A stretch of 38,079 nucleotides of DNA from Lachnospiraceae bacterium (GTDB lineage: Bacteria > Bacillota > Clostridia > Lachnospirales > Lachnospiraceae). The stretch spans positions 1-38,079 of the forward strand of contig JAEEOQ010000072.1 of NCBI GenBank assembly GCA_016284355.1. Reading direction: 5' to 3'. Shown one piece after another: positions 13,809-27,438 of this stretch (position 1 is the stretch's first letter; every line of letters starts with the position of its first letter). The notes beneath the pieces were generated by a model. It did no database searches. It had not been told where the DNA came from and worked only from the letters and a program-made list of their open reading frames with translations. Both the position numbers and the translations under genes were made by a program.

Positions 13809-14603
13809 ATGTTCCTTTCAAAAGAAAATATAGATATAAAACTGATAGAAGTCTCAGGCCAGGTATTTAGGATAAGCGATGATAGTAACGGCGGATTTGT
13901 TGCGGTGCATAAAGAAAATGTGCTTCGCACAAAAGAAACGGAAAGTGGCTACGAACTTGATTGCAGCAAAGAAGACTTTGACAGTATCTGGGCTGATTAC
14001 TTTGATATGAAGACTGATTACGAAGGCCTCATTAAGGCCATAGACCCGGCTGATAAGTTTCTTACTGAATCGGCAAAAGCAGGAAGAGGCATAAGGATAT
14101 TAAATCAGGACCCCTGGGAAGCAACTCTTTGCTTTATCATTTCACAAAACAACAATATCCCCCGGATAACCGGTTCTGTAAATAAGATCTGCGAAAGATT
14201 CGGGAAAAAGCTTGAAGAAGGTATCTACTCAATCCCGACGCCGGAGGTTCTTGCAGGTCTTAGCGGCAAAGAGGCGCTTTCAGGTCTCGGTCTTGGGTAC
14301 AGAGATGAGTACATATATGAGTTTTGCAAAAACTACGATGTATATGCTTTCCTAGAGGAGGTAAAAAAGCTTCCGTACGAGGAAGCAATGAAAGAACTTA
14401 TGAAGGTTAAGGGTATCGGTAAAAAGGTGGCAAACTGCATCTGCCTTTACGGCCTTCATATGGTAAATGCCTGCCCTATAGACGTGTGGGTAAAGCGAAT
14501 TATAGACGAGGAATACGGCGGGAAGCAGCCTTCCTGGATGAGCTGCAGCGCAGCCGGCATTTACCAGCAGTATGCTTTTTACTATAAGCGAAATAACAAA
14601 TAA
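13809..14603 (+). CDS. ogg: 8-oxoguanine DNA glycosylase/AP lyase, OGG1 type
   Basis: This 264-residue base-excision-repair enzyme should remove 8-oxoguanine and cleave the abasic site. ATG 13809 has AGGAG 7 nt upstream; the longer reading from 13770 overlaps the promoter region and is rejected. Residues 1-100 match the OGG N-terminal domain, and residues about 105-262 form the HhH-GPD fold. The hairpin VKGIGKKVANCICLYGL carries the catalytic lysine K206 (aligned with K249 of human OGG1), and ACPIDVWVKRI carries the catalytic aspartate D225. The asparagine-rich turn SQNNNIPRI fits the DNA-intercalating loop. It stands alone, convergent with the surface-protein gene. Function is firm by family; the exact lesion range is not. 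Confidence 0.92.
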   Translation: MFLSKENIDIKLIEVSGQVFRISDDSNGGFVAVHKENVLRTKETESGYELDCSKEDFDSIWADYFDMKTDYEGLIKAIDPADKFLTESAKAGRGIRILNQDPWEATLCFIISQNNNIPRITGSVNKICERFGKKLEEGIYSIPTPEVLAGLSGKEALSGLGLGYRDEYIYEFCKNYDVYAFLEEVKKLPYEEAMKELMKVKGIGKKVANCICLYGLHMVNACPIDVWVKRIIDEEYGGKQPSWMSCSAAGIYQQYAFYYKRNNK

Positions 14604-14615
14604 TACAATAAGCGC

Positions 14616-14656
14616 AAAAAAGCCTTACCCAAGCACTTACCGGGTAAGGCTTTCTT
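14616..14656. terminator. Bidirectional terminator between ogg and the surface-protein gene
   Basis: A perfect 12-bp stem (14619-14630 with 14642-14653, AAAGCCTTACCC and complement) and an 11-nt loop has T-rich flanks on both strands (TTTCTTTATT on plus, TTTTTTGCGC on minus). It lies 15 nt after the ogg stop and just beyond the stop of the convergent gene. Confidence 0.87.
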
Positions 14657-14664
14657 TATTGGTT

Positions 14665-17600
14665 TTAGTTAATCGTAATTGGAACCGAGATAACAGGGAG
14701 TGAGTTGATATAGATATTTGCAACTATATCGCCTGTACCTGCTGTTACTCTTGCGTTCCTTGTTCCGTTCTTTTCTACTGAGAAGGAATTTGTTACCGCA
14801 AGCTGTACTCTTACAACATCATTTGTAAAGTCAGAGTACGCTCTTCCGTACTGATCATAAGCTGTTACGTAGTTGTTGCTTGTAAGCTGGCTCCAGATTG
14901 TTGAGCTTCCCACAAGGGTTCCGGTAGGAGTTATCTTTACATCTGCTGCATAAGGCGCTGCATCAGATATCTTAACCTTTGCCTCAATTGTAGAACCTGC
15001 ACCGTCATCAACTACGATGGTGTATTTAAGTGTTGCGGTTCTGCTGTTTGTATTGCTGTCTATGGCATAACCAAGGGTCTGAAGAGTTGCCGCATCAGGA
15101 TCGATAGCGTAAGCAACTGCTCCGCCGCTTGTTCCGCTTACAAGGAATCTGTTTGCATTATCGTTTCCGTTAAGAGGATATACCGTGATCCTGTCATCAG
15201 GAATGCGGATCTTTGTTCCGTCTGCAGATACGCCGTATACTACAAATGCCTTGTTTCCTGAGTTATCTCCGTTATAAAGAAGTCCGAAGTCTTCTACTGT
15301 ATAGCCTGTCTTTACAAGAGCGTCTGAACCGTAGCTCTTTACTGTAGCCACATATCCACTGCCATCTACAAGTTTTCCGGTCCCATCCACAAGCTGGAAT
15401 CTTATGGTTGTGGTTCCTGCAAGAGAACCTGTGGTAAGTGTTGCTATAGGAAGGTTACTTCCTGTATTGGCGGTATCAGCTGCAGATGAAAGAGTCACAT
15501 CGGTATTTACAGCCGAATTTGCCGCAAATGAATTATTTACAGGAGCAAAGTCAGAAACTCTTACCTTGTACCCGCTGTTCTTGATATTTGTCTGCTGCAT
15601 CTCTGCGCCGTACTGATCTACTATCTGAAGGTCTTTCTGGCGGATGATAACCTTGCTTCCGTTTATAAGAGCTCCAAGTGAGCAACTTTGGTTGATTCCG
15701 TAGATCTTAGACGGGATCGGCTTTGAAAAGATACTGAAGTTAAATACCTTAATATTAACCGAAGCCTGCATTGTGGTTATGGAATCGTAGTAAACAGGAA
15801 GGTTAAGGGAAGCTGATGTGGAAGATCCGCTTGAGCCTGCAAGTGTAGCAGGAACATAGCGAAGCTTTGCGCTTCCGTCTGCCTGCTTAACCCACGCAAA
15901 TGTGGAACCGCCGGTTGACTTGATAAATGTGCTGTTCTTTTCAAATGTTGCATAGGTTCCGTTATCTGTAAGGCCGCAGTACTTAACGAGCGTAGCATAG
16001 CTTGTGATGTCGTTGCCGTCTGTATCTGCTACCTGGTAGTCAAGGTAGGTCTCTTTTGTCTCGTAAAGGGTCTCTGTTTGCGCAATTGTAATTGTCTTAA
16101 TACCCTTTTGAGGAGCTATGGTTATTGTAAATGTCTGGTTCTTCTTAGCTGATGATGTGGAAGAAATTGTATTTACAACAAGCATTGCCTTACCTTCTTT
16201 TATCTTGCCTGCATTAAGCGGGTAAGCAAGGTACTGCTCATTATCTATTGTAATAGCATTAATTGACTCGATTACTGTTGATGTACCCTTACGTACGGTA
16301 GCAAGAGAAAGACCTGTGGTTCCGCCTGAAAGGTTTACAACAAGTGATGAATAACCAACTCCTGCGCCGGCTGCGTTTCCGCCGTACTGATTTGTAGCCT
16401 TAAAGAGCACGTAGTAAGCTCCGCTTGTTTTTGTGTTCTTTGCTTCGCCGCCGTATGCCACGATATCAGGGTCACCCTCTGAAATATTGCAGGTGTTTTG
16501 GTCTGCCATAAGCATATATTTTTCAGTAAGTCCGTCGTATTTGTAAATACCCTTAAATTCTACAGTATCTACAAAAGCAGGTTTTGCGATCTCAACCTCT
16601 TCCTTCATGGTTACAACTTTGGTACCGCTTACATAAGTAAGCACCACGTCGTATTTTTGTCCTACTGTAATGTAGCTGTTTTCGTACTGGTAAGTAAGAA
16701 CGCCGGCAGAAGTAGGTCTGAAAACTCCGCCCGCCGTAAAATCCGTATAAGGGAAGTTCGGGTTATCTGTAATATCAAGGCCCCACTGATCGTACAGTCT
16801 GTATTTTACGGTAGCCTTCGGGTAAGTTCCGTCTGTCTGGATAAGTTTATCAAGGATAGCGTATTTTGAATCAAGAACGATCTTGTCGATCTTTCTAGTG
16901 GTACATTCTACATCGATCCCTTTTTCCGCATCGTTTATGAATACGGTGTAGGTTGCCTCCATGTAGTTACCCGGAAGACTTACTATAGCGCTGTGCTTAT
17001 CTTCGCTTATCTCAGGGCTTCCAGCTTTAAGAGTCATAACAGTGTTGCCGCGCTTTACGGTGATCTTTGTGATCTCTGTGGCGCTTGTAACTTTGATCTT
17101 ATTGGTATCTACCTGAGCTGCCGAATCAGTGTAGGCATCGTCTTCTTTTTTGTCTTTATCAGGATCACCCTCGCCGACTATTATCTCAATTACGTTACTG
17201 TCTATGGCATAATCAAAGTTTGTCTTTGAATTTCTTGCATTTGCTTTAGCGTATACAACACCGTCTGAAATGCCGGTTACCACCATACCTTTACCCATTT
17301 CGGCAACGCTGCCGTCATGCTCTACGGTACAGTCTTCATCATCATAAAGAGTTCCGTAAGTCTTGTATGTAGACTTGATCTTTGAATTGATCTCAAGAGC
17401 GTCTGCATCCGGAGTAAGGGTTCTGTTGATATCAAGAGTCTTGCCGATGGCAAGTGTTCCGTCAAAATTCTTTGGTGAAACGACTTCTATCTCAACTTCT
17501 TCTGCCCTTGTACGGCATTTAACGTAAGTACGAAGAGTTTCTGTTACGCCGTTAAGCTTGTAGGTATAAAGGATCTGCGCCTCGCCGTTACCTACGGCTT

Positions 17601-17886
17601 TAGCCTTTCCTTCTTTATCTACCTTAACGATCTTTTCGTTTGTGGAACTCCAGGTTCCCTTCATCTTTGATGTCTTGCCGTTGATGTTGTAGTCAAAATT
17701 CCACTTTTTGCCGCCGACATAAAGGAATTTTGGCTTAGCCTTCGTATAGGTCTTGTCAGGCTCCCCCTTCACATAGATCTTGGCAACAGCAGCACTTGCC
17801 CTTTGCGGAATATTTACCGCGGTAAGCGCCATAACAAATGCAAGCACCGTAACAAGTACTTTCTTCATTAAGCTACTGTTTCTCAT
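14665..17886 (-). CDS. Large secreted surface protein B (S-layer-like, Ig-like repeats)
   Basis: Start ATG 17886 (MRNSSLMKKVLVTV) has GGAGGA 5 nt upstream; a longer open frame to 18051 overlaps rfbD and is not real. The 1073-residue product has a signal peptide cut near residue 32 (ASA/AVA). The N-terminal 100 residues contain a Big2-like module (GTWSSTNEKIVKVDKEGKAK) that also occurs in the paralogue at 21522-24368. The rest is beta-strand- and Thr/Ser/Val-rich, with four collinear (D/N)Q(Y/W)G motifs (YDQWGLDIT, NQYGGN, DQYGAE, DQYGRA). No SLH, LPXTG, CWB2 or other anchor is recognised. It lies 22 nt after rfbD and is the last gene of the dTDP-rhamnose operon. Likely an exported cell-surface or S-layer protein, perhaps glycosylated. 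Confidence 0.82.
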   Translation of the reverse strand: MRNSSLMKKVLVTVLAFVMALTAVNIPQRASAAVAKIYVKGEPDKTYTKAKPKFLYVGGKKWNFDYNINGKTSKMKGTWSSTNEKIVKVDKEGKAKAVGNGEAQILYTYKLNGVTETLRTYVKCRTRAEEVEIEVVSPKNFDGTLAIGKTLDINRTLTPDADALEINSKIKSTYKTYGTLYDDEDCTVEHDGSVAEMGKGMVVTGISDGVVYAKANARNSKTNFDYAIDSNVIEIIVGEGDPDKDKKEDDAYTDSAAQVDTNKIKVTSATEITKITVKRGNTVMTLKAGSPEISEDKHSAIVSLPGNYMEATYTVFINDAEKGIDVECTTRKIDKIVLDSKYAILDKLIQTDGTYPKATVKYRLYDQWGLDITDNPNFPYTDFTAGGVFRPTSAGVLTYQYENSYITVGQKYDVVLTYVSGTKVVTMKEEVEIAKPAFVDTVEFKGIYKYDGLTEKYMLMADQNTCNISEGDPDIVAYGGEAKNTKTSGAYYVLFKATNQYGGNAAGAGVGYSSLVVNLSGGTTGLSLATVRKGTSTVIESINAITIDNEQYLAYPLNAGKIKEGKAMLVVNTISSTSSAKKNQTFTITIAPQKGIKTITIAQTETLYETKETYLDYQVADTDGNDITSYATLVKYCGLTDNGTYATFEKNSTFIKSTGGSTFAWVKQADGSAKLRYVPATLAGSSGSSTSASLNLPVYYDSITTMQASVNIKVFNFSIFSKPIPSKIYGINQSCSLGALINGSKVIIRQKDLQIVDQYGAEMQQTNIKNSGYKVRVSDFAPVNNSFAANSAVNTDVTLSSAADTANTGSNLPIATLTTGSLAGTTTIRFQLVDGTGKLVDGSGYVATVKSYGSDALVKTGYTVEDFGLLYNGDNSGNKAFVVYGVSADGTKIRIPDDRITVYPLNGNDNANRFLVSGTSGGAVAYAIDPDAATLQTLGYAIDSNTNSRTATLKYTIVVDDGAGSTIEAKVKISDAAPYAADVKITPTGTLVGSSTIWSQLTSNNYVTAYDQYGRAYSDFTNDVVRVQLAVTNSFSVEKNGTRNARVTAGTGDIVANIYINSLPVISVPITIN

Positions 17887-17908
17887 AACAATCCTCCATC
17901 CTTGGTGT

Positions 17909-18913
17909 TTATTGTAATGACTCGCTCTTAAAGTATTCATCAAGGTATTCCTTAAGAGCCTCCTCCCATGAAAGCATGGTAAAGTCGGTCTCTGTATGTA
18001 TCCGCGCGTTTTCAAGCACCGAATAAGCAGGTCTTTTTGCGGCGCAGACATATTCCATAGACCCTATAGGTATTATATCGGCATTTTTACCCAAAAACTC
18101 AAATATTTTCTTTGCAAATCCGTACCAGGTGGTACTTCCTTCGCAAACTCCGTGCCAGATACCGTATTTTTCCGTAAAAAAAAGATAAACTATAAGCCTT
18201 GCAAGCTCACTTGCACTTGTAGGGCAGCCCGTCTGATCGTCTACCACGCGAAGCTGGCGATCTGCATTATTTATCATAGTGCGTACAAAATTTTTCCCTT
18301 CTCCAAAAAGCCAGGCGGTGCGGATTATAAAATGTTTTTTGCAGGCAGATGCAACTGACTGTTCTCCAAGGAGCTTACTTTTTCCGTAGGCAGTCTGCGG
18401 ACAAGGCTCGTCTTTTTCAGTAAGGGGCTTATCCCCTTCTCCGCTAAAGACATAATCCGTAGAAACATGTACTATCTTTGCACCTACAGCGTCTGCTGCC
18501 TTTGCAAGAAAGCCCGGCGCTTTGCCGTTTAGAAGGTTTGCCGCCTCAGGCTCCTCTTCTGCCTTATCTACAGCATTATAAGCCGCGCAGTTAACTATTA
18601 CGTCAGGCATATATGAAAAAACGAATTCATTTACGGCATTTTCGTCAGTTATGTCAAGAGCCTGTACGTGTCTGTCTTCGTTGGCAAATGCCTCGTCAGA
18701 GCCGTCAAAGCCCTCATCAAGATACATCTCGCGGTGCCCTGTAAGAATGTAATCTATAGGTCTTACAAGCTGGGTAAGACCGTGGGTATTGCACTTTATC
18801 TTACCGCAGGCACACTTTGCCACCTTAATCATATTTGCCGCATTATAATAATCTATTTCTTTTATAAGAGCCCTGCCAAGCTGGCCTGCGGCTCCCGTTA
18901 TAAGTATGTTCAT
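17909..18913 (-). CDS. rfbD: dTDP-4-dehydrorhamnose reductase
   Basis: This 334-residue extended SDR enzyme carries out the last step of dTDP-L-rhamnose synthesis, NAD(P)H reduction of dTDP-4-dehydro-L-rhamnose. It has the N-terminal Rossmann motif GAAGQLGRAL, the catalytic region VSTDYVFSGEGDKPLTE and the active-site pair TAYGKSKLLGE (YxxxK), and RTAWLFG downstream. It is longer than the usual 280-300 residues because of an insert at about residues 25-85, which includes a CxCx4Cx2H cluster (C34, C36, C41, H44). Its ATG overlaps the rfbB stop by 4 nt (ATGA), so translation is coupled. Identity is firm; the role of the insert is unknown. Confidence 0.92.
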   Translation of the reverse strand: MNILITGAAGQLGRALIKEIDYYNAANMIKVAKCACGKIKCNTHGLTQLVRPIDYILTGHREMYLDEGFDGSDEAFANEDRHVQALDITDENAVNEFVFSYMPDVIVNCAAYNAVDKAEEEPEAANLLNGKAPGFLAKAADAVGAKIVHVSTDYVFSGEGDKPLTEKDEPCPQTAYGKSKLLGEQSVASACKKHFIIRTAWLFGEGKNFVRTMINNADRQLRVVDDQTGCPTSASELARLIVYLFFTEKYGIWHGVCEGSTTWYGFAKKIFEFLGKNADIIPIGSMEYVCAAKRPAYSVLENARIHTETDFTMLSWEEALKEYLDEYFKSESLQ

Positions 18914-19935
18914 TTTCTGTATTTCCCGTACATTTCATCATAGTAGTTCTGATATTCGCCGGAGATTATCTCTTCCCACCAGCTGCGGTTATCAAGATAC
19001 CACTTTATAGTCTCTTTAAGGCCCTCTTCTACCTTTACCGTAGGCTCCCAGCCAAGATCACGCATGATCTTTGCAGGATCGATGGCGTAGCGCCTGTCAT
19101 GCCCCGGCCTATCTGTAACATAGGTAATAAGGTCCTCGCCCTTTCCTGTTTCTTTAAGGATAGTGCGGATTATCTCAAGGTTTGTACGCTCGTTGTGGCC
19201 GCCTACATTGTAAACTTCTCCCACTTTTCCCTTAAATGCCACAAGCTCGATGGCAGAGCAATGATCCCCCACATAGAGCCAGTCACGCACATTAAGACCG
19301 TTGCCGTATACAGGCAGCTTTTTATCATTTACCGCATTTGCGATCATAAGTGGTATTAATTTTTCAGGGAACTGGTATGCACCGTAGTTGTTTGAACATC
19401 TTGTGATACTTACAGGCACGTTAAAGGTACGAAGATAGGAAAGTGCAAGAAGGTCAGCCGATGCCTTGCAGGCTGAATAAGGACTGCTGGCATGAAGCGG
19501 CGTATCTTCCGTAAAGAAAAGATCCGGCCTGTCAAGCGGAAGATCTCCGTAAACCTCGTCTGTAGATACCTGATGGAATCTCTTTATGCCGTAAATGCGG
19601 CAGGCATCAAGAAGCACGCCGACTCCCACCACATTTGCGTTCATAAAGCTTTCAGGATCTACAGTAGACCTGTCTACATGGCTTTCTGCCGCAAAATTAA
19701 TTACCACATCAGGCTTTTCATCTTCAAAAAGCTTATAAATAAAGGCACGGTCAGAAATATCACCCTTTATGAACTTATAATTCGGGTAATCTTCCATTCC
19801 TTTAAGATTCTTAAGGTTTCCTGCGTAGGTAAGCTTATCAAGGGCGATAAGCATATCGTCAGGATGTTTTTCTTTCATGTAATACATAAAGTTTGAGCCG
19901 ATAAAGCCTGCAGCTCCCGTAATAAGTATATTCAT
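18910..19935 (-). CDS. rfbB: dTDP-glucose 4,6-dehydratase
   Basis: This 341-residue, NAD-dependent extended SDR converts dTDP-D-glucose to dTDP-4-dehydro-6-deoxyglucose. Visible motifs are the Rossmann loop GAAGFIGSNF, the catalytic STDEVYGDL (with the D-E pair that activates C5), YSACKASADLL (YxxxK), and RCSNNYGAYQFPEKLIPL, all diagnostic for RmlB. Its ATG overlaps the rfbC stop by 1 nt (TAATG), with GGAGGAG at 8 nt. It is the second of three tightly coupled rhamnose genes. No thymidylyltransferase (rfbA) is present in the window. Confidence 0.96.
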   Translation of the reverse strand: MNILITGAAGFIGSNFMYYMKEKHPDDMLIALDKLTYAGNLKNLKGMEDYPNYKFIKGDISDRAFIYKLFEDEKPDVVINFAAESHVDRSTVDPESFMNANVVGVGVLLDACRIYGIKRFHQVSTDEVYGDLPLDRPDLFFTEDTPLHASSPYSACKASADLLALSYLRTFNVPVSITRCSNNYGAYQFPEKLIPLMIANAVNDKKLPVYGNGLNVRDWLYVGDHCSAIELVAFKGKVGEVYNVGGHNERTNLEIIRTILKETGKGEDLITYVTDRPGHDRRYAIDPAKIMRDLGWEPTVKVEEGLKETIKWYLDNRSWWEEIISGEYQNYYDEMYGKYRK

Positions 19936-20483
19936 TAAAACAACTCCTCCTGTATATCTTTTAAGAACGGATTGTTTGCATCACGCTCATTAAGTATCGG
20001 ATTGTCACAGCCCCAGTCAATGCCGATCTCCGGGTCGTTCCAGCGAAGGAAACGCTCTGCCGCAGGGTTATAGAAATTATCAACCTTGTATATAAACTGG
20101 GCTCCCGGTGTCATGGTGATATAGCCATGTGCAAAGCCTCTTGGCACAATAAGCATATGCTTTGTTTCAGCAGAAAGGATAGCCTTTGTCCACTTTAAAA
20201 ATGTAGGCGAGTCTTTACGAAGGTCAACGCACACATCCATAACTATACCTTTGACGCACCTTACAAGCTTTGCCTGACTTGCGTCACCTGCCTGAAAATG
20301 AAGGCCGCGAAGGGTATCCTTCTGAAGATTAAAGCTCTCGTTGTCCTGCACAAAATCGTAGTGAAGGTCAAGCTCTTCCATAGTCTTTTTTGACCAGGTT
20401 TCTACAAACCAGCCACGGGAATCGCCGTGGATCTCAGGTATAAGAATATATACGTCCTTTACCCCTGTTTCAATCTTTTGCAT
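19935..20483 (-). CDS. rfbC: dTDP-4-dehydrorhamnose 3,5-epimerase
   Basis: This 182-residue cupin-fold epimerase acts between RfbB and RfbD. It has the conserved DSRGWFVETW start, the active-site histidine in TLRGLHFQ, the partner VCVDLRKDSPTF, and RGFAHGYITM. The C-terminus is GIDWGCDNPILNERDANNPF, close to the usual SIPW..L.S.KD ending. Start ATG 20483 has GAGGA 7 nt upstream, and 47 nt separate it from the HAD gene stop. Length is normal. Confidence 0.95.
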   Translation of the reverse strand: MQKIETGVKDVYILIPEIHGDSRGWFVETWSKKTMEELDLHYDFVQDNESFNLQKDTLRGLHFQAGDASQAKLVRCVKGIVMDVCVDLRKDSPTFLKWTKAILSAETKHMLIVPRGFAHGYITMTPGAQFIYKVDNFYNPAAERFLRWNDPEIGIDWGCDNPILNERDANNPFLKDIQEELF

Positions 20484-20530
20484 GTTAATATCCTCTTTTT
20501 ATATGTTAATTACTATTTTTGATCTATATT

Positions 20531-21346
20531 TTACAGGTACTGCTCTAAAAACGCCGCAACTCCGTCTTCATCGTTGCTAAGAGTAATGTAATCTGCCGCT
20601 TCCTTTGCCTCAGGGCATCCATTTTCCATACATACGGAATAACCGCATTCTTCTAGCATCTTTACATCGTTGAGGCCGTCGCCAAAAGCAAGAACTCTGT
20701 CAATGTTGCTGCCAAGCTTAGCCGCAAGCTCGCCAAGCATCTTTGCCTTATCTACTCCCGGCGCCATAACCTCAAGGAAATAGCTTTCGCTAAAATATAT
20801 ACTAAGGTTATCTCCGAATTTCTCTTTAAGATCCTTTTCAACAGGAACAAGCTTGTCATGCACTCCTACAATAAGTACCTTTGGCTCGTCCCAGGTTATA
20901 TGCTCTTCAAGATTTTCTACTTTTCTGAAATTAATATTGTTTATACGTACCTCTATCTGGGCGTATTCATCGTAAGGATCCCAGGAGATAACGTCTTCTC
21001 CCTCGTAGGTAACAGGCACTACGCCGCCCTTTCTGCAGGAAGCAAAGATCTCTTTTAAGTGTCTGTTTTCAACTTCCTTTGAAAGAAGCACCTTTCTGCT
21101 TACGCAGTCCACAATACGGCCGCCGTTGTAGCAAAGAAGATAACCGCCCTTTTTATCAAGACCTATTTCTCTTGCGATAAGCGCCACGCCTGCTTCAGGT
21201 CTGCCGCTTGCAAGGACCACTTTCTTGCCCTGATCTATGGCTTTATAAAGCGCCTCCTTTGTCCTTTCCGTCACCCTCTTTTTAGAGTCGGTAACCGTAC
21301 CGTCTATATCAAGGGCGATAATGTCGTAATCTTTTAAATCAAACAT
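20531..21346 (-). CDS. Cof-type HAD-IIB phosphatase
   Basis: This 271-residue cytoplasmic HAD phosphatase has all four motifs. Motif I is ALDIDGTVTD (nucleophile D13 and acid/base D15), motif II LASGRP, motif III K in VDKAKML, and motif IV AFGDGLNDVKMLE. The C2B cap lies between motifs II and III. Such enzymes dephosphorylate sugar phosphates, FMN precursors or similar, and the exact substrate is not readable. It opens the gene string that continues with rfbC-rfbB-rfbD. Its own ribosome binding site is weak (AAGAG), and a 9-bp hairpin lies at 21368-21391 in its leader. No convincing promoter was found in 21392-21448. Confidence 0.9.
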   Translation of the reverse strand: MFDLKDYDIIALDIDGTVTDSKKRVTERTKEALYKAIDQGKKVVLASGRPEAGVALIAREIGLDKKGGYLLCYNGGRIVDCVSRKVLLSKEVENRHLKEIFASCRKGGVVPVTYEGEDVISWDPYDEYAQIEVRINNINFRKVENLEEHITWDEPKVLIVGVHDKLVPVEKDLKEKFGDNLSIYFSESYFLEVMAPGVDKAKMLGELAAKLGSNIDRVLAFGDGLNDVKMLEECGYSVCMENGCPEAKEAADYITLSNDEDGVAAFLEQYL

Positions 21347-21448
21347 AATACAATTCTCTTTCTAAGCTGTTTCTTTCCCATAAAAGAAACATTTCCACAT
21401 TTTATTTATCAAAAACCCAATACTTTCCCTACTATATACTATCATAAC

Positions 21449-21479
21449 AAAAAGAGCGCATCTTAGCAATGCGCTCTTT
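21449..21479 (-). terminator. Intrinsic terminator of surface protein A gene
   Basis: An 11-bp perfect stem (21451-21461 with 21469-21479, AAAGAGCGCAT and complement) with a 7-nt loop is followed on the minus strand by TTTTTG. It lies 43 nt after the stop codon and separates the surface-protein transcript from the HAD/rfb operon. Confidence 0.9.
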
Positions 21480-21521
21480 AAGAATTATGCTTATTAAAAC
21501 TTATTTATCTGTACTAGATAA

Positions 21522-24368
21522 TTAGTAAACAGTGATGGTTCTTGAGAATGTCTGTGTACCTACTGTGAAGATAACGGTAAGTGTTACGTCTGCATCCTTA
21601 ACTGAAGTTGTTGCTGTACCGTTATTTGTAAGTGTAGCATTCTTTGTAGTACCTGTAATAGTTACTCTGCTGCCTGTAACTGCGATAGCATCGCCGTACT
21701 GATCTTTGAAATCAAACATTGCAAGGATCTGAGCTGCTGTGTATGTTGTGTTGTTCTTAAGGTAAGCACCGCTCTTAAGCTCGCAAGTAGTTGCAACTCT
21801 TGCCTTCTCTGAGTAGTTTACAGTGAACTTGATATCAGGAGAACCTACAGCATCTGAAACAACGATCATATACTCTACTGAGTACTCATTATCTCCGGTC
21901 TTTCCGTCTGTACCGGGGTTCTCGATTGTACCTGCTACGGTACCAGGTCTAAGAACTACAGTGTAATCAGAATCTTTAAGCTTGATCTTGTTTCCTGTAG
22001 AAGCTGCTGTTCCGTATACGCTGATAGGAAGGTTTGTAGCTGCTCCGCCGCCACCGTAAACAAGTGTAGGAACTTCGATCTTGAAGTTGCTAAGCTCTGA
22101 AAGTTCTACACACTGAAGATTTGTCTGGTAATCAGATCCTGCTACAGCCTTACCGCCCTTTGTTACAGCGATATTAACTGAGTTAGAACCTGACGCAAGC
22201 GCTGCTGCTCCAATAAATGTGGCATCGCCGTTTGCAGGAGTTCCGTTGCTGCCTGCGTTAGCTACTGCTGCTGTGTTTGAACCAAATGTGATCTCAAAAC
22301 CGTAGCCTGAAGCGAATGAAGCGAGAACCTCATCAGTTGTCATTTCCTCGCCGTACTGGTTCTGAACTTTAATGTACTTGAATGGAACATTGATTGTTCC
22401 GCCCTTAACTGCTCCAAGAGAAGCATCACTCTTGATACCGAGAACGCTGTATGGATAAGCCTTCTCGTATGCAGTAAATGTCTGTGAAGTGATCTGTGCA
22501 CCAAGTGCAGGTGGCTGAGCGATAATGCTGCCGTACTGGGTGGAAGGAGTACCGTAAAGCTTAGCTGTTCCGTTTGACTGCTTCTCCCACTTCATGGTGA
22601 TACCCTGGCTCATGGAGAAGTTTACATTCTTAAGAAGATCATAAGAAGTAACTACCTGGTTGTTGTTGTCATATGCTGTAAATGAAAACTCTGTCTTTGA
22701 ACCAACCTTAAGAGTTGCAAGCTGTGAGATGTTTGAAATGCTTGAAACCTTGGTTGCTGCAGTTACTGTGATAGTACCGCTTCCTGTTACTCTTCCGTCT
22801 GCGAATGAAACAGGGACAGCTGTAACAGTTGAAGTACCTGCAAGGATCTTACCTGCCTTAACAGGGTAACCTGCTGCGAACTCTGCTCCGTTTGCCTTAA
22901 GAGCAACCGGCTTTGTTGTTGTATCAAATGCAAGTCCTGTTGCACCGACAACGCTAACGATAACGTTGTCCTTTGTAATGCTTGCTACAGGGAAAAGGTC
23001 ACCGTACTGATCTCTTACTTCAAGAGCAAGGTAAACCTGATTTGCTGTAACGTCGCCTTCCATAAGGCTTGTAGCAACATGGTTAGAACCGTCAAGTTTG
23101 TAAATACCAAGAAGTTTAACTGTATGAGGACCTGCTGCTGCAGATACTGTATATGACTTAGAGTCACTTGCTACAGTAGAACCTGAGATAGCGATTACGC
23201 TAGGAGCTACTACTGTAAGACCTGCTACGAAGTCTGTTGTGCTTGTAGCGATGATAACGCCTGCTTTTGTCTTATCTACTGTGTAACCGTTAACAGTAAT
23301 TGTAGCTGCTGAGTAGTACTTAGCTGTTACATCTGTGCCGAACTGGTCAAGGATCTTATATGTGATCTTAACCTGCTTTGAATTACCTGTAACGATGGTT
23401 GCTGCCTTACCAAACTCGATCTTTGAAGGACCTGACTGAGCCATGGTAAGCTCATAAACCTTGCCGCTCTTTAAGGTAACTGTGTAGCTTCCTGCCATAG
23501 GGTTAGCTGAGTTTGTAGTAAGTACAACTGACTTGCCGTCTGAAGAAAGTACTGCAGAAGCAAGAGCGATAGGAGCTCCGTTACACTTAACAGCGTAATC
23601 TGCTACCACATTTGTAAGGCCCTTGCCTGTAACTGTGATCTGGTTAACAGCTGTCTGCTTTGCACCTTCTGCTACATCGCTTTCAACCTTAATTGTTACA
23701 TAGTTCTCTTTATAGTATTTGTTCTTACGAACGTTAGCTTCTTTAGAGTAGTTAGCTACGAAGTTAACCTTTGTGGTTCCCTCTTTTGCTGCGTTGATCT
23801 TATACTCTGTGTTGCTGCTCTTGATTACCTGTACAACAGAAGTGTCTTCTACTTCAGGGTAAACCTTGTAAGAAGAAGCGCTGCCGCTCTGTAATGCTGT
23901 CTTGTTAACAGGCATATCGATAGAAACAGGAAGAACCTCGCCAACCTTAAGTGTAAGCTCTTTTGCGTTAACGTTCTCGCCGTTTGAGTTGATGTTAAGA
24001 GCTGTGGCACGTGTTCTTGCGTAAACGCCAGCTTTAAGCTTTGTTCCGTTCTTTGCCTTAAATGTGATGACTACGCCGCCGTTCTTAAGGGCTTTCATCT
24101 CGCCTGTAGCCTTATCGATCTTGATAACGCTAGGCTTACTTGATTTCCAGGTACCTGAGATACCTGCTGATTTCTTATTGATCATGTAGTCAAGGTTTAC
24201 AGCCTTACCGCCTACCCACATGGTAAGCTTCTTTTCTGTAGAAACCTGTGTCTTTGTTCCGCTTATGAAGATGTAATTCTTCGCTGCGTTAGCACTTGCA
24301 GCAGGTACGAGTGATACGACCATTGCAAGTACCAGAACTGCTGATAAAAATCTTGCTAATTTCTTCAT
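21522..24368 (-). CDS. Large secreted surface protein A (S-layer-like, Ig-like repeats)
   Basis: This 948-residue exported protein starts at ATG 24368, with GGAGGA 5 nt upstream. The signal peptide is cut near residue 28 (ANA/AKN). The N-terminal region (30-130) has a Big2-like module (GTWKSSKPSVIKIDKATGEM) homologous to the paralogue at 14665-17886. Four (D/N)Q(Y/F)G motifs recur along the chain (LDQFGTDVT, RDQYGDL, QNQYGEEM, KDQYGDAI), in the same order and context as in the paralogue. The body is rich in Ala, Thr, Val, Lys and beta-strands, with a single-exporter look and few cysteines. Heavy use of a small codon set (GTT, GCT, ACT, AAG) suggests very high expression. It has its own promoter and terminator. 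No known wall anchor is visible. Best guess: main S-layer-like protein. Confidence 0.85.
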   Translation of the reverse strand: MKKLARFLSAVLVLAMVVSLVPAASANAAKNYIFISGTKTQVSTEKKLTMWVGGKAVNLDYMINKKSAGISGTWKSSKPSVIKIDKATGEMKALKNGGVVITFKAKNGTKLKAGVYARTRATALNINSNGENVNAKELTLKVGEVLPVSIDMPVNKTALQSGSASSYKVYPEVEDTSVVQVIKSSNTEYKINAAKEGTTKVNFVANYSKEANVRKNKYYKENYVTIKVESDVAEGAKQTAVNQITVTGKGLTNVVADYAVKCNGAPIALASAVLSSDGKSVVLTTNSANPMAGSYTVTLKSGKVYELTMAQSGPSKIEFGKAATIVTGNSKQVKITYKILDQFGTDVTAKYYSAATITVNGYTVDKTKAGVIIATSTTDFVAGLTVVAPSVIAISGSTVASDSKSYTVSAAAGPHTVKLLGIYKLDGSNHVATSLMEGDVTANQVYLALEVRDQYGDLFPVASITKDNVIVSVVGATGLAFDTTTKPVALKANGAEFAAGYPVKAGKILAGTSTVTAVPVSFADGRVTGSGTITVTAATKVSSISNISQLATLKVGSKTEFSFTAYDNNNQVVTSYDLLKNVNFSMSQGITMKWEKQSNGTAKLYGTPSTQYGSIIAQPPALGAQITSQTFTAYEKAYPYSVLGIKSDASLGAVKGGTINVPFKYIKVQNQYGEEMTTDEVLASFASGYGFEITFGSNTAAVANAGSNGTPANGDATFIGAAALASGSNSVNIAVTKGGKAVAGSDYQTNLQCVELSELSNFKIEVPTLVYGGGGAATNLPISVYGTAASTGNKIKLKDSDYTVVLRPGTVAGTIENPGTDGKTGDNEYSVEYMIVVSDAVGSPDIKFTVNYSEKARVATTCELKSGAYLKNNTTYTAAQILAMFDFKDQYGDAIAVTGSRVTITGTTKNATLTNNGTATTSVKDADVTLTVIFTVGTQTFSRTITVY

Positions 24369-24407
24369 TCCAATCCTCCATTTGTGTAAATGTAAAAGTG
24401 TAATAGT

Positions 24408-24450
24408 AAAAAGAGTACATACCTAAAGGCTTTCCTCTAAGCATGTACTC
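24408..24450 (-). terminator. Terminator of the ABC gene, nested in the surface-protein leader
   Basis: A 17-bp stem with a few G-T pairs (24434-24450 with 24413-24429) and the 4-nt loop AAAG runs directly into TTTTT (24408-24412) on the minus strand. For RNA coming from the ABC gene (stop at 24552) this is a strong intrinsic terminator. The surface-protein promoter's -10 box (24451-24456) touches its 5' end, so RNA started near 24444 lacks the first 6 nt of the stem, leaving an 11-bp hairpin 6 nt away from the U-tract. Confidence 0.75.
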
Positions 24451-24459
24451 ATTATACCA
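24451..24459 (-). promoter_or_regulatory. Extended -10 promoter of surface protein A
   Basis: The minus strand reads TGG followed by a perfect TATAAT (24451-24456), i.e. an extended -10 (TGnTATAAT). No good -35 sits at 17 bp (sequence there resembles GAAGAC), as often seen in activator-dependent promoters. The predicted start is the A at 24444, giving a leader of about 75 nt. Confidence 0.75.
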
Positions 24460-24466
24460 CATATCC

Positions 24467-24534
24467 TGTTAAAGTCTTCACTAAACTTTGTCAATTTCCT
24501 TAAGATTTTCTTAAGGTCTGTTAAAAAGTCTTAA
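24467..24534 (-). repeat. Helically phased TTAAGA/TTAACA direct repeats upstream of the surface-protein promoter
   Basis: On the minus strand the hexamers TTAAGA (24529-24534), TTAACA (24519-24524), TTAAGA (24509-24514), TTAAGG (24498-24503) and TTGACA (24489-24494) begin 10, 10, 11 and 9 bp apart. A further TTAACA (24467-24472) follows two turns later, 22 bp on. They are direct repeats on the transcribed orientation, ending 10 bp before the -10 box. This resembles the PhoP-binding arrays of Bacillus, but phased A/T tracts could also simply bend DNA. Confidence 0.6.
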
Positions 24535-24551
24535 GAATTTCGTTTTGCAGA

Positions 24552-26294
24552 TCATCTTTCCTGTTTTATCTTTCCGCCTGCCACTCTGTACACGATATCG
24601 CAATTTTCTATGGTCTGAAGCCTGTGTGCGATAATAATGAGGGTCTTGCGGCCGTGAAGAGAATTGATGGATTCCATAATGGCTGCCTCTGTCTCATTAT
24701 CAAGGGCGCTTGTGGCCTCGTCAAAAACAAGGATGGCAGGGTCTTCAAAAAGAGCTCTTGCAATACCTATTCTCTGGCGCTGTCCGCCTGAAAGCCTTAC
24801 GCCGCGCTCTCCTATCTGGGTGTTTATGCCATCGGGAAGCTCTCGTACAAAGTCTGCAAGCTGAGCTTCTTCAAGAGCATGCCAAACCTTAGCATCGGTA
24901 TTTTCATCTTCTTTTACCGCAAATGCCACATTTTCTTTAATGGTTCCGTCAAGCATAAAGATGCTCTGCGGAATATAGCCGATGTGAGAAAGCCACTCAT
25001 CGTAAGATTTCATAACATCTACGCCGTCCGTAAGTACCTGTCCTTTTTCAGGTCTTAAAAGGCCAAGCATAATATCTACTGCGGTTGTCTTTCCTGCTCC
25101 GGAGGTACCGACGATACCAACAGATTTTCCTGCAGGTATCACCATTTCTGCATCCGAAAGCACGTGCTTGTTAGAATTTGGATAGCGATAGGTTATGTCT
25201 GAAAGCCTGACCTCGTTATTTAAGGTAAGGTCGCATTCTTTTTCTCTTGCGTTCTCTGCGGCATATTTTTCATTGTCTGATTCAAGCTGCTCTAAGTTTT
25301 CAAGAAGCTTATCAAGAGCAGGCTCCTGGAAAGCGATACCGTTTATGGCGCCCACTATACGGTTGGCGCTAGGCATAAGCTTAACTGCTGCCATGGCAAA
25401 AGCACCAAGGGTAGGCACAAGTTCGTCTATGTCTTTGCCAAAGTAGATCATAAGGGCGATGACTGCAAGCATAGAGCAGACGCAGACCATCTCTATAAGA
25501 AGACGGGGTATCTGGCTGAAGACCGAATTCCACTTTTCAGCGCTTATCATACGTCTTCCGCTTACTTCGTAGTTTTTCTCAAAGAACTCTTCTTTATCTG
25601 CCACCTTTATCTCTTTGATACCGTTTATGGCCTGAATAAGCCATTTGTTGGTAAGAGCGGAGTGTTTTTGAAGGTCAAGGCCCTTTCTTCTAAGTATAGG
25701 CCTTACCACCTTTGCTATAAGGATAAGTATGACACCAAGCATCACCGCAAGAAGAGATGACATAATAGGGTCTACTATAAAGATAGTAACGGCAAGTGCA
25801 AGTGATACAAGGGACTCTGTACCAAGCGAAAGAAGGGTCATAAGGAGGCTATAGGTGCTTCCAACATCTCCTGTTATAACTCTCATTATCTCGCCTGACT
25901 TAACATTAAGAAAATACTCGTAAGGTCTGTTAAGAAATACATGTAAAAGACGCTGCTGAGTAGCAAATCTGTTGTTAAATACAAAGCGGGCCTGTACATA
26001 GTACTGTGCCATAAGGAAAACATCTTTAAATATAAATATAAGTATAAGAGCCGCGATACAAACGATAACAAAGGTTCTGTGGGAGTGAAGGTCAAACACC
26101 CCGCAGACCCACTTTATTATCTCGTTTCTTTCTATTATATCAGGTTGCATAATGGCCTTAACAAGCGGTAGCATAAGGCCTACGCCAAGTACCTCTAAAA
26201 ACGCCCCGATCACCGTAATGACAAAAAGTATGCCGATACGCTTTTTCTGGCGCTTATCCATAAGAGTGTTAAATTTTTTTATTACACCGATCAT
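24552..26294 (-). CDS. PglK-like ABC exporter / putative glycan flippase (fused membrane and ATPase domains)
   Basis: This 580-residue half-transporter has about six membrane segments in residues 20-320 and an ATPase domain at 360-580. The ATPase motifs are Walker A GTSGAGKTT (K402), Q-loop IGYIPQSIFM, signature LSGGQRQ (501-507), Walker B ILVFDEATSALD (E526) and H-loop IIAHRL (H557). The membrane domain resembles PglK, the lipid-linked oligosaccharide flippase of Campylobacter, notably around AAVKLMPSANRIVGAINGI. It lies upstream of the surface proteins and the rhamnose genes, which supports export of a glycan precursor, but the substrate is inferred. ATG 26294 has AAAGGAAG 6 nt upstream. 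Its transcript should end at the nested terminator 24408-24450. Confidence 0.88.
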   Translation of the reverse strand: MIGVIKKFNTLMDKRQKKRIGILFVITVIGAFLEVLGVGLMLPLVKAIMQPDIIERNEIIKWVCGVFDLHSHRTFVIVCIAALILIFIFKDVFLMAQYYVQARFVFNNRFATQQRLLHVFLNRPYEYFLNVKSGEIMRVITGDVGSTYSLLMTLLSLGTESLVSLALAVTIFIVDPIMSSLLAVMLGVILILIAKVVRPILRRKGLDLQKHSALTNKWLIQAINGIKEIKVADKEEFFEKNYEVSGRRMISAEKWNSVFSQIPRLLIEMVCVCSMLAVIALMIYFGKDIDELVPTLGAFAMAAVKLMPSANRIVGAINGIAFQEPALDKLLENLEQLESDNEKYAAENAREKECDLTLNNEVRLSDITYRYPNSNKHVLSDAEMVIPAGKSVGIVGTSGAGKTTAVDIMLGLLRPEKGQVLTDGVDVMKSYDEWLSHIGYIPQSIFMLDGTIKENVAFAVKEDENTDAKVWHALEEAQLADFVRELPDGINTQIGERGVRLSGGQRQRIGIARALFEDPAILVFDEATSALDNETEAAIMESINSLHGRKTLIIIAHRLQTIENCDIVYRVAGGKIKQER

Positions 26295-26320
26295 TTTCTA
26301 CTTCCTTTCAAGTCTAAGTT

Positions 26321-26329
26321 ATTGTATCA
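26321..26329 (-). promoter_or_regulatory. Extended -10 promoter of the ABC exporter gene
   Basis: The minus strand reads TGA followed by TACAAT (26321-26326), an extended -10, about 27 nt before the ATG. No clear -35 is present. The rest of the divergent gap (26330-26448) is AT-rich. On the plus strand TTGGGC, 17 bp, TATGTA around 26405-26433 is a weak candidate for the SGNH gene. Confidence 0.45.
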
Positions 26330-26448
26330 TACTTAAAGGAAAAAAGACATAAAGAATAAATATGATAGTAATATTTTTTTAACAATATTATAGTAAGATA
26401 ATTTTTGGGCTAAATATTAGACACTTTTATGTAGTTCCGGAGGAGAAA

Positions 26449-27438
26449 ATGAAAAACAAACGAAAGAACAGAGCTGCTGCCGTCGTTGCAACCGCCGCAG
26501 CTGTGGTGGTTTACAGCGCTGCTGTCTGCTACCTTGCAAAAGATATAATGATTGCAAACGATCTTATTGATAATAACAAAATAGCGGAAGAAATCGTTTA
26601 TGAAAAACCTGTAAGCGACGAGCCTGCTGTTATAAACACTCCTGTTATAGCGGTTGCAGACACCGGCGAGACTGTAAAGATCTCAGATACCGGAAGCGGT
26701 ATTGTAAGCAAAGAAAAAGCACCTGAAAACGAGGCTGCAGACAGTTCCCCTGATGTTAATGATACAGAAAAAAAGGAACCGGATGAGGGAAAAACAGATG
26801 AACTTCCCGAAGATCCAGAGATTCCTGCTCCTGATGTTGCCTCTGAAGGCGCCATTACCGAAGAAGTTCCTTACTTTAAAGATACTCTCTTTATCGGCGA
26901 TTCAAGAACCGACGGACTTCATATAAACACCGGCGAAAAAAATGCAAAGTTTTATGCATGCAAGGGTCTTGCGGTAAACAACATCCTTACGGAAAAATTT
27001 ATAAAAGAAAAGGGCAGCAAAGAAAAGGTTACTCTTCTTAAAGCCCTTGAAGGAAAGAGTTTTAAAAAGATCTATATAAGTCTTGGAGTAAACGAGCTTG
27101 GCTGGATATCAGACAGTAAGTTTATAGGCGACTACAAGACAGTGGTTGAAGAAATTATGAAAGCTGCCCCTGAAAGCAGTATCGTAGTGCAGTCCATACT
27201 TCCTATTACGAAGAAGCGTTCCTCTTCAGACAAGGTTTATACCAACGAAAAGGTAAACACCTACAACGAACTTTTAAAGGGTATGTGCGACGAACTTGGC
27301 GTTACTTACGGAGACGTAACACCTTCTGTAGCAAATGAAGACGGTTATCTTCCGGAAGAAGGTTCTGTTGACGGAATACATTTAAAGAAAAGCTATTATG
27401 AAAAATGGCTTAAATACATTGAAGAAAAGGGAATATAA
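26449..27438 (+). CDS. Membrane-anchored SGNH/GDSL-type hydrolase
   Basis: This 329-residue protein has a basic start and a membrane anchor at about residues 8-35, an acidic Pro/Glu-rich linker (50-135), and an extracellular SGNH hydrolase domain from about 143. Block I is LFIGDSRTDGL (nucleophile S152), block II the glycine at KGLAV (G173), block III SLGVNELGW (N215), and block V VDGIHLKK (D308, H311), so the catalytic set looks complete. Such domains usually act as O-acetylesterases on cell-wall or surface polysaccharide, but the substrate is not readable. GGAGGAG precedes the ATG closely. The next gene starts 1 nt after its stop. Confidence 0.9.
   Translation: MKNKRKNRAAAVVATAAAVVVYSAAVCYLAKDIMIANDLIDNNKIAEEIVYEKPVSDEPAVINTPVIAVADTGETVKISDTGSGIVSKEKAPENEAADSSPDVNDTEKKEPDEGKTDELPEDPEIPAPDVASEGAITEEVPYFKDTLFIGDSRTDGLHINTGEKNAKFYACKGLAVNNILTEKFIKEKGSKEKVTLLKALEGKSFKKIYISLGVNELGWISDSKFIGDYKTVVEEIMKAAPESSIVVQSILPITKKRSSSDKVYTNEKVNTYNELLKGMCDELGVTYGDVTPSVANEDGYLPEEGSVDGIHLKKSYYEKWLKYIEEKGI

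Follow-up and report, generated by a model that had tools for sequence, protein, structure and literature searches.

The window, a stretch of 38,079 nucleotides from a Lachnospiraceae bacterium (contig JAEEOQ010000072.1), contains two neighboring minus-strand genes separated by an intergenic gap of 183 nt, which runs from the stop of the first (24552) to the ATG of the second (24368). The upstream gene (24552–26294) encodes an ABC transporter of 580 aa in which a membrane domain and an ATPase domain are fused; its Pfam matches are ABC_tran (8.8e-29) and ABC_membrane (4.8e-13). The downstream gene (21522–24368) encodes a product of 948 aa. This product is probably a secreted Ig-like surface protein: its N-terminus resembles a signal peptide, and its Ig-like Pfam match is weak, below the family cut-off. 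Just 3' of the surface-protein gene, a terminator-like hairpin of 12 bp is followed by a T-rich tail (21451–21479), and the gene is therefore probably transcribed alone.

The gap holds a hairpin with a U-tract, an extended -10 element, and the predicted leader of the surface-protein mRNA. This leader spans 76 nt (24369–24444, minus strand) and includes a GGAGG ribosome-binding site. The predicted mRNA also has an AUG at its very first base (24444), which opens a 51-codon frame that overlaps the start of the surface-protein gene out of frame.

The predicted terminator hairpin and the adjoining promoter

The hairpin has a stem of 17 bp and a loop of 4 nt (24413–24450, minus strand) and is flush with a U-tract, TTTTT (24408–24412). 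Together they form a 43-nt structure with a folding energy of -25.1 kcal/mol (z -7.6); none of 200 shuffled sequences, which fold at -7.2 +/- 2.4 kcal/mol, does as well. In a consensus scan of positions 14000–27000, this hairpin had the most pairs among 14 terminator-like sites. The element has the layout of an intrinsic (Rho-independent) terminator, a stable hairpin followed immediately by a U-tract, with about -24 kcal/mol and a terminator score of +17.8 (see below), albeit with a short tract of only five Us. The hairpin is much more stable as sense RNA than as antisense (-23.9 versus -10.7), owing to three G-U pairs, a strand difference that favors an RNA element over a DNA dyad. Its predicted end lies 144 nt past the ABC stop, which exceeds the 25–75 nt reported for the majority of terminators in a comparison with RegulonDB (PMC12207403).

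Directly against the hairpin lies a perfect extended -10 element, TGGTATAAT (24459–24451, minus strand), in which TATAAT occupies 24456–24451 and is preceded by TG at the spacing of the TGN-TATAAT consensus. The -10 ends at 24451, and the first base of the hairpin is 24450. From the position of the -10, transcription is predicted to start at A24444, 7 nt downstream, and thus inside the 5' arm; the bottom six pairs of the stem use bases upstream of this start. The same scan of 14000–27000 found no -35 hexamer at the right distance, and this promoter is absent from its list for that reason. Judged by its sequence, the promoter is one that depends on the extended -10. The initial annotation had described a 17-bp hairpin with TTTTT abutting the -10 box; read on the minus strand, its coordinates are correct base for base, and the folding statistics bear out the structure.

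Termination predicted to depend on transcript origin

We compared the 2 kinds of RNA that could traverse this boundary with the d'Aubenton-Carafa terminator score, in which positive values are terminator-like. Read-through RNA carrying the full stem scores +17.8, versus -55.3 for RNA begun at A24444; all starts from 24449 to 24437 score negative. RNA from A24444 retains 11 pairs, with 6 nt, GUACUC, parting the stem from the U-tract. The remaining 5'-terminal hairpin (24419–24444, minus strand) is a modest structure (-11.8 kcal/mol, z -2.7, matched by 7 of 200 shuffles; -11.1 for the stem-loop alone). No other positive-scoring hairpin was found between the ABC stop and the surface-protein gene.

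These values support termination that depends on origin, whichever start the -10 permits, since all such starts score negative. In the proposed mechanism, RNA polymerase that reads on from the ABC gene would transcribe the whole 17-bp stem and the U-tract, and would mostly terminate. Polymerase initiating from the extended -10 of the surface-protein gene itself would begin inside the 5' arm of the hairpin; the native RNA would omit the bottom six pairs, those flush with the U-tract, and polymerase would continue. The arrangement may have been retained because it is useful to both genes in a short intergenic space. Both the start at A24444 and termination at the U-tract are predictions from sequence. 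We regard it as fairly probable that the promoter is nested in the ABC gene's terminator, such that read-through RNA stops and native RNA escapes. This is the mechanism proposed in the initial annotation and it is the best reading of the locus: the 11-bp remainder and the six unpaired nucleotides are there in the sequence, and the central idea, a terminator that only read-through RNA can form, is supported by the scores at every realistic start and by the recurrence of the layout at other genes of this genome.

Codon bias of the flanking genes

We estimated expression from codon adaptation, with ribosomal proteins and part of EF-Tu as reference, and ranked 371 ORFs of at least 250 aa. The surface-protein gene reaches 0.78, the 97th percentile, similar to the reference genes themselves; such ribosomal-protein-like bias is what one would expect if, as had been proposed, the gene is highly expressed. 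The high bias also argues against a native RNA that includes the whole terminator, because such an RNA would attenuate itself. The ABC gene, at 0.515, is below the median and looks weakly expressed. Insulation is less needed where the upstream gene looks weak, and may be a by-product of the ABC gene's need for a terminator.

Recurrence of nested promoters

We searched 1.05 Mb of the same genome (39%) for positive-scoring terminators with a gene start within 200 nt, of which there were 84, and counted as nested any extended -10 whose placement deprives the native RNA of part of the stem. Nested extended -10s occur at 4 of the 84 terminators versus a mean of 0.95 (maximum 3) for 38 permuted control motifs, an enrichment that is suggestive and falls short of a clean test, as the cases were first met during scanning and the definitions of motif and region were adjusted between rounds. 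The same-size stretch right after the terminators holds 7 extended -10s.

Besides the surface-protein gene of the window (24459–24451), the nested cases are L038, L090, and L168. At L038 (C101), a paralogous gene for an Ig-like surface protein has TGATATACT in the hairpin, and the scores are +4.9 for read-through RNA versus -89.6 at best for native RNA. At L090 (C41), a sensor kinase/response regulator operon has TGGTAAAAT inside the hairpin, with +22.4 for read-through and -70 for native RNA. At L168, TGCTAGAAT precedes a gene that comes after a prephenate-dehydratase-like gene (named by eye). The native RNAs of the paralog and the kinase operon keep no terminator stem, so a stabilizing stem is not the feature common to the nested cases. 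The third paralog in the window (14665–18051) has no terminator just before it.

In a second genome of the same family, sampled over 0.8 Mb, we found 1 nested case versus 0.68 in controls. The layout is recurrent in the first genome, and the lack of excess in the second leaves its generality beyond that genome unsupported. Recurrence is probably owed in part to economy of space. It is conceivable, though we lean against it, that terminators which discriminate by transcript origin are a promoter architecture used repeatedly in this genome, the next extended -10 being set in or against the preceding terminator so that read-through RNA alone terminates, with the two paralogous surface-protein genes and the kinase/regulator operon, which shares a CTTAAG-N5-CTTAAG box with the surface-protein gene, among its members.

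Searches of relatives for a homologous leader found none, which counts against the proposed mechanism. A DNA search of 60 relatives returned short chance matches only, and a protein search of 397 family genomes returned few, distant homologs whose upstream regions are without this leader. Two scans of genome contigs gave no relatives of the surface protein; the ABC homologs in these scans are distant only (best 48–49% identity) and in other gene contexts. The only Rfam element in the window is a tRNA.

Alternative explanations

The most serious alternative shares the anatomy of the proposed mechanism and differs on what is selected, so that the two estimates are not mutually exclusive. Terminator and promoter may simply share a gap of 183 nt, the overlap being tolerated and native escape incidental, with no selected insulation; we give this somewhat less than an even chance. 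It fits the counts within this genome, where nested extended -10s are no commoner than those just after terminators, as well as the absence of excess in the other family genome, and read-through from an ABC gene that looks weakly expressed would add little. It accounts less readily for a hairpin that begins at the very base adjoining the -10, so that the native RNA loses 6 of 17 pairs, or for native escape at a paralog whose hairpin is quite different. Alternatively, the inverted repeat may mainly cap an abundant native mRNA with a 5'-terminal stabilizing stem-loop, its likeness to a terminator being secondary. An 11-bp stem stands right at the 5' end of the native RNA, and the gene's codon bias is high; yet the six outer pairs, all Watson-Crick, would be pointless in a cap, the shortened stem is as modest as its shuffles indicate, and the kinase-operon and paralog RNAs keep none of the terminator stem. 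We consider this unlikely; the stabilizing effect that the initial annotation ascribed to the native stem-loop likewise finds little support.

Two further readings would alter the anatomy itself. If transcription began further upstream, for example from the TTGACA at 24491–24486, the hairpin would lie in the gene's own leader as a regulated terminator, and its full stem does score as a terminator. No acceptable -10 follows TTGACA at 16–18 nt, whereas TGGTATAAT is a perfect extended -10, the Rfam search detected no riboregulator in the window (only the tRNA), and the folds made contain no competing antiterminator structure; a leader attenuator thus appears improbable. Least probable of all, to the point of being a slim chance, is a protein-binding operator, in which the dyad GAGTACAT...ATGTACTC over the start region would be a repressor site. 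Its outer 8 bp form a perfect DNA dyad, but the inner nine pairs fully hold only as sense RNA, and the GTACAT...ATGTAC dyad is otherwise present in just two of the genome stretches analyzed (L047 and L054), at other spacings. We set the cruciform or operator reading aside because pairing is much stronger in the sense RNA.

Relation to known systems

Dependence of RNA folding on transcript origin has a precedent in the protection of IS10/IS50-type elements from impinging transcription. A transcript that enters from outside carries the complete inverted repeat and folds, hiding the ribosome-binding site; one from the internal promoter starts within the repeat and does not fold. The present locus resembles these elements in that folding depends on origin, and differs in that the outcome would be termination, at an ordinary chromosomal gene; here, GGAGG lies outside the terminator hairpin in the folds. 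The leaders of Escherichia coli ompA and Bacillus subtilis aprE carry 5'-terminal stabilizing stem-loops. The predicted native RNA likewise starts with a stem-loop, although this one is modest, contains three G-U pairs, and is absent from the paralog and kinase-operon cases.

Shared boundaries between transcription units are known in E. coli, where the promoter of ampC overlaps the frd operon and a single hairpin is both attenuator of ampC and terminator of frd (Grundstrom and Jaurin 1982, recounted in PMC13228080 and PMC11838884). In both settings, as far as these accounts go, a downstream promoter meets an upstream unit and one hairpin serves as the upstream terminator, here by geometry and score only. 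By the same accounts, the ampC attenuator, at +17 to +37, attenuates ampC itself (PMC13228080, PMC11838884). Unlike ampC as there described, the surface-protein gene has its predicted start inside the 5' arm, and its native RNA should escape; the score of -55 gives no indication that the hairpin attenuates the downstream gene. In Clostridium saccharoperbutylacetonicum, the promoter Pasr overlaps the loop of the terminator that ends the sol operon and drives a regulatory RNA, Assolrna; mutation of Pasr lowers sol mRNA (PMC9402939). This is a clostridial promoter that overlaps a terminator loop, as in the C101 paralog, and the passage on Pasr does not describe origin-dependent termination (PMC9402939). 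Our search of the open-licence literature found no description of the exact layout. Shared promoter/terminator boundaries should be regarded as already known, and the predicted escape of the downstream gene as the difference from ampC.

If true, the arrangement would mark the boundary between two co-directional genes compactly and by sequence alone, sorting polymerases by their start point. It would suit tightly packed genomes neatly and be usable as an insulator-promoter part. It also provides a warning for annotation pipelines: a gene need not be attenuated by a strong terminator that spans its start site or lies a little upstream of it.

A candidate regulatory box upstream of the promoter

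A CTTAAG-N5-CTTAAG box at 24499–24515, roughly -55 to -71 relative to the predicted start, is a candidate response-regulator site. The motif has 7 exact sites in its own genome versus 1 for the reversed control, and 0 or 1 site in each of 40 relatives. The sites are those in the window (24499–24515) and in L005, L038 (at 7426), L064, L067, L068, and L069. The sensor kinase/response regulator operon (L090:2503–4753), which encodes an OmpR-type regulator (Response_reg and Trans_reg_C), has one copy of the box just upstream. This placement suggests a two-component regulon, autoregulated and with the surface-protein gene among its members. Our guess is that the OmpR-type regulator binds the box, and the direct-repeat spacing of 11 bp is consistent with this.

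At three sites (L067, L064, and window 24451–24515), the box is separated from the next -10-like element by about 23, 33, and 42 nt. These distances differ by steps of about one helical turn of DNA, as expected for an activator site. In the leader of the kinase operon (L090:4770–4815), the native RNA can pair GGGGA of the terminator 3' arm with a downstream CUCCCC, a pairing that possibly forms an alternative hairpin.
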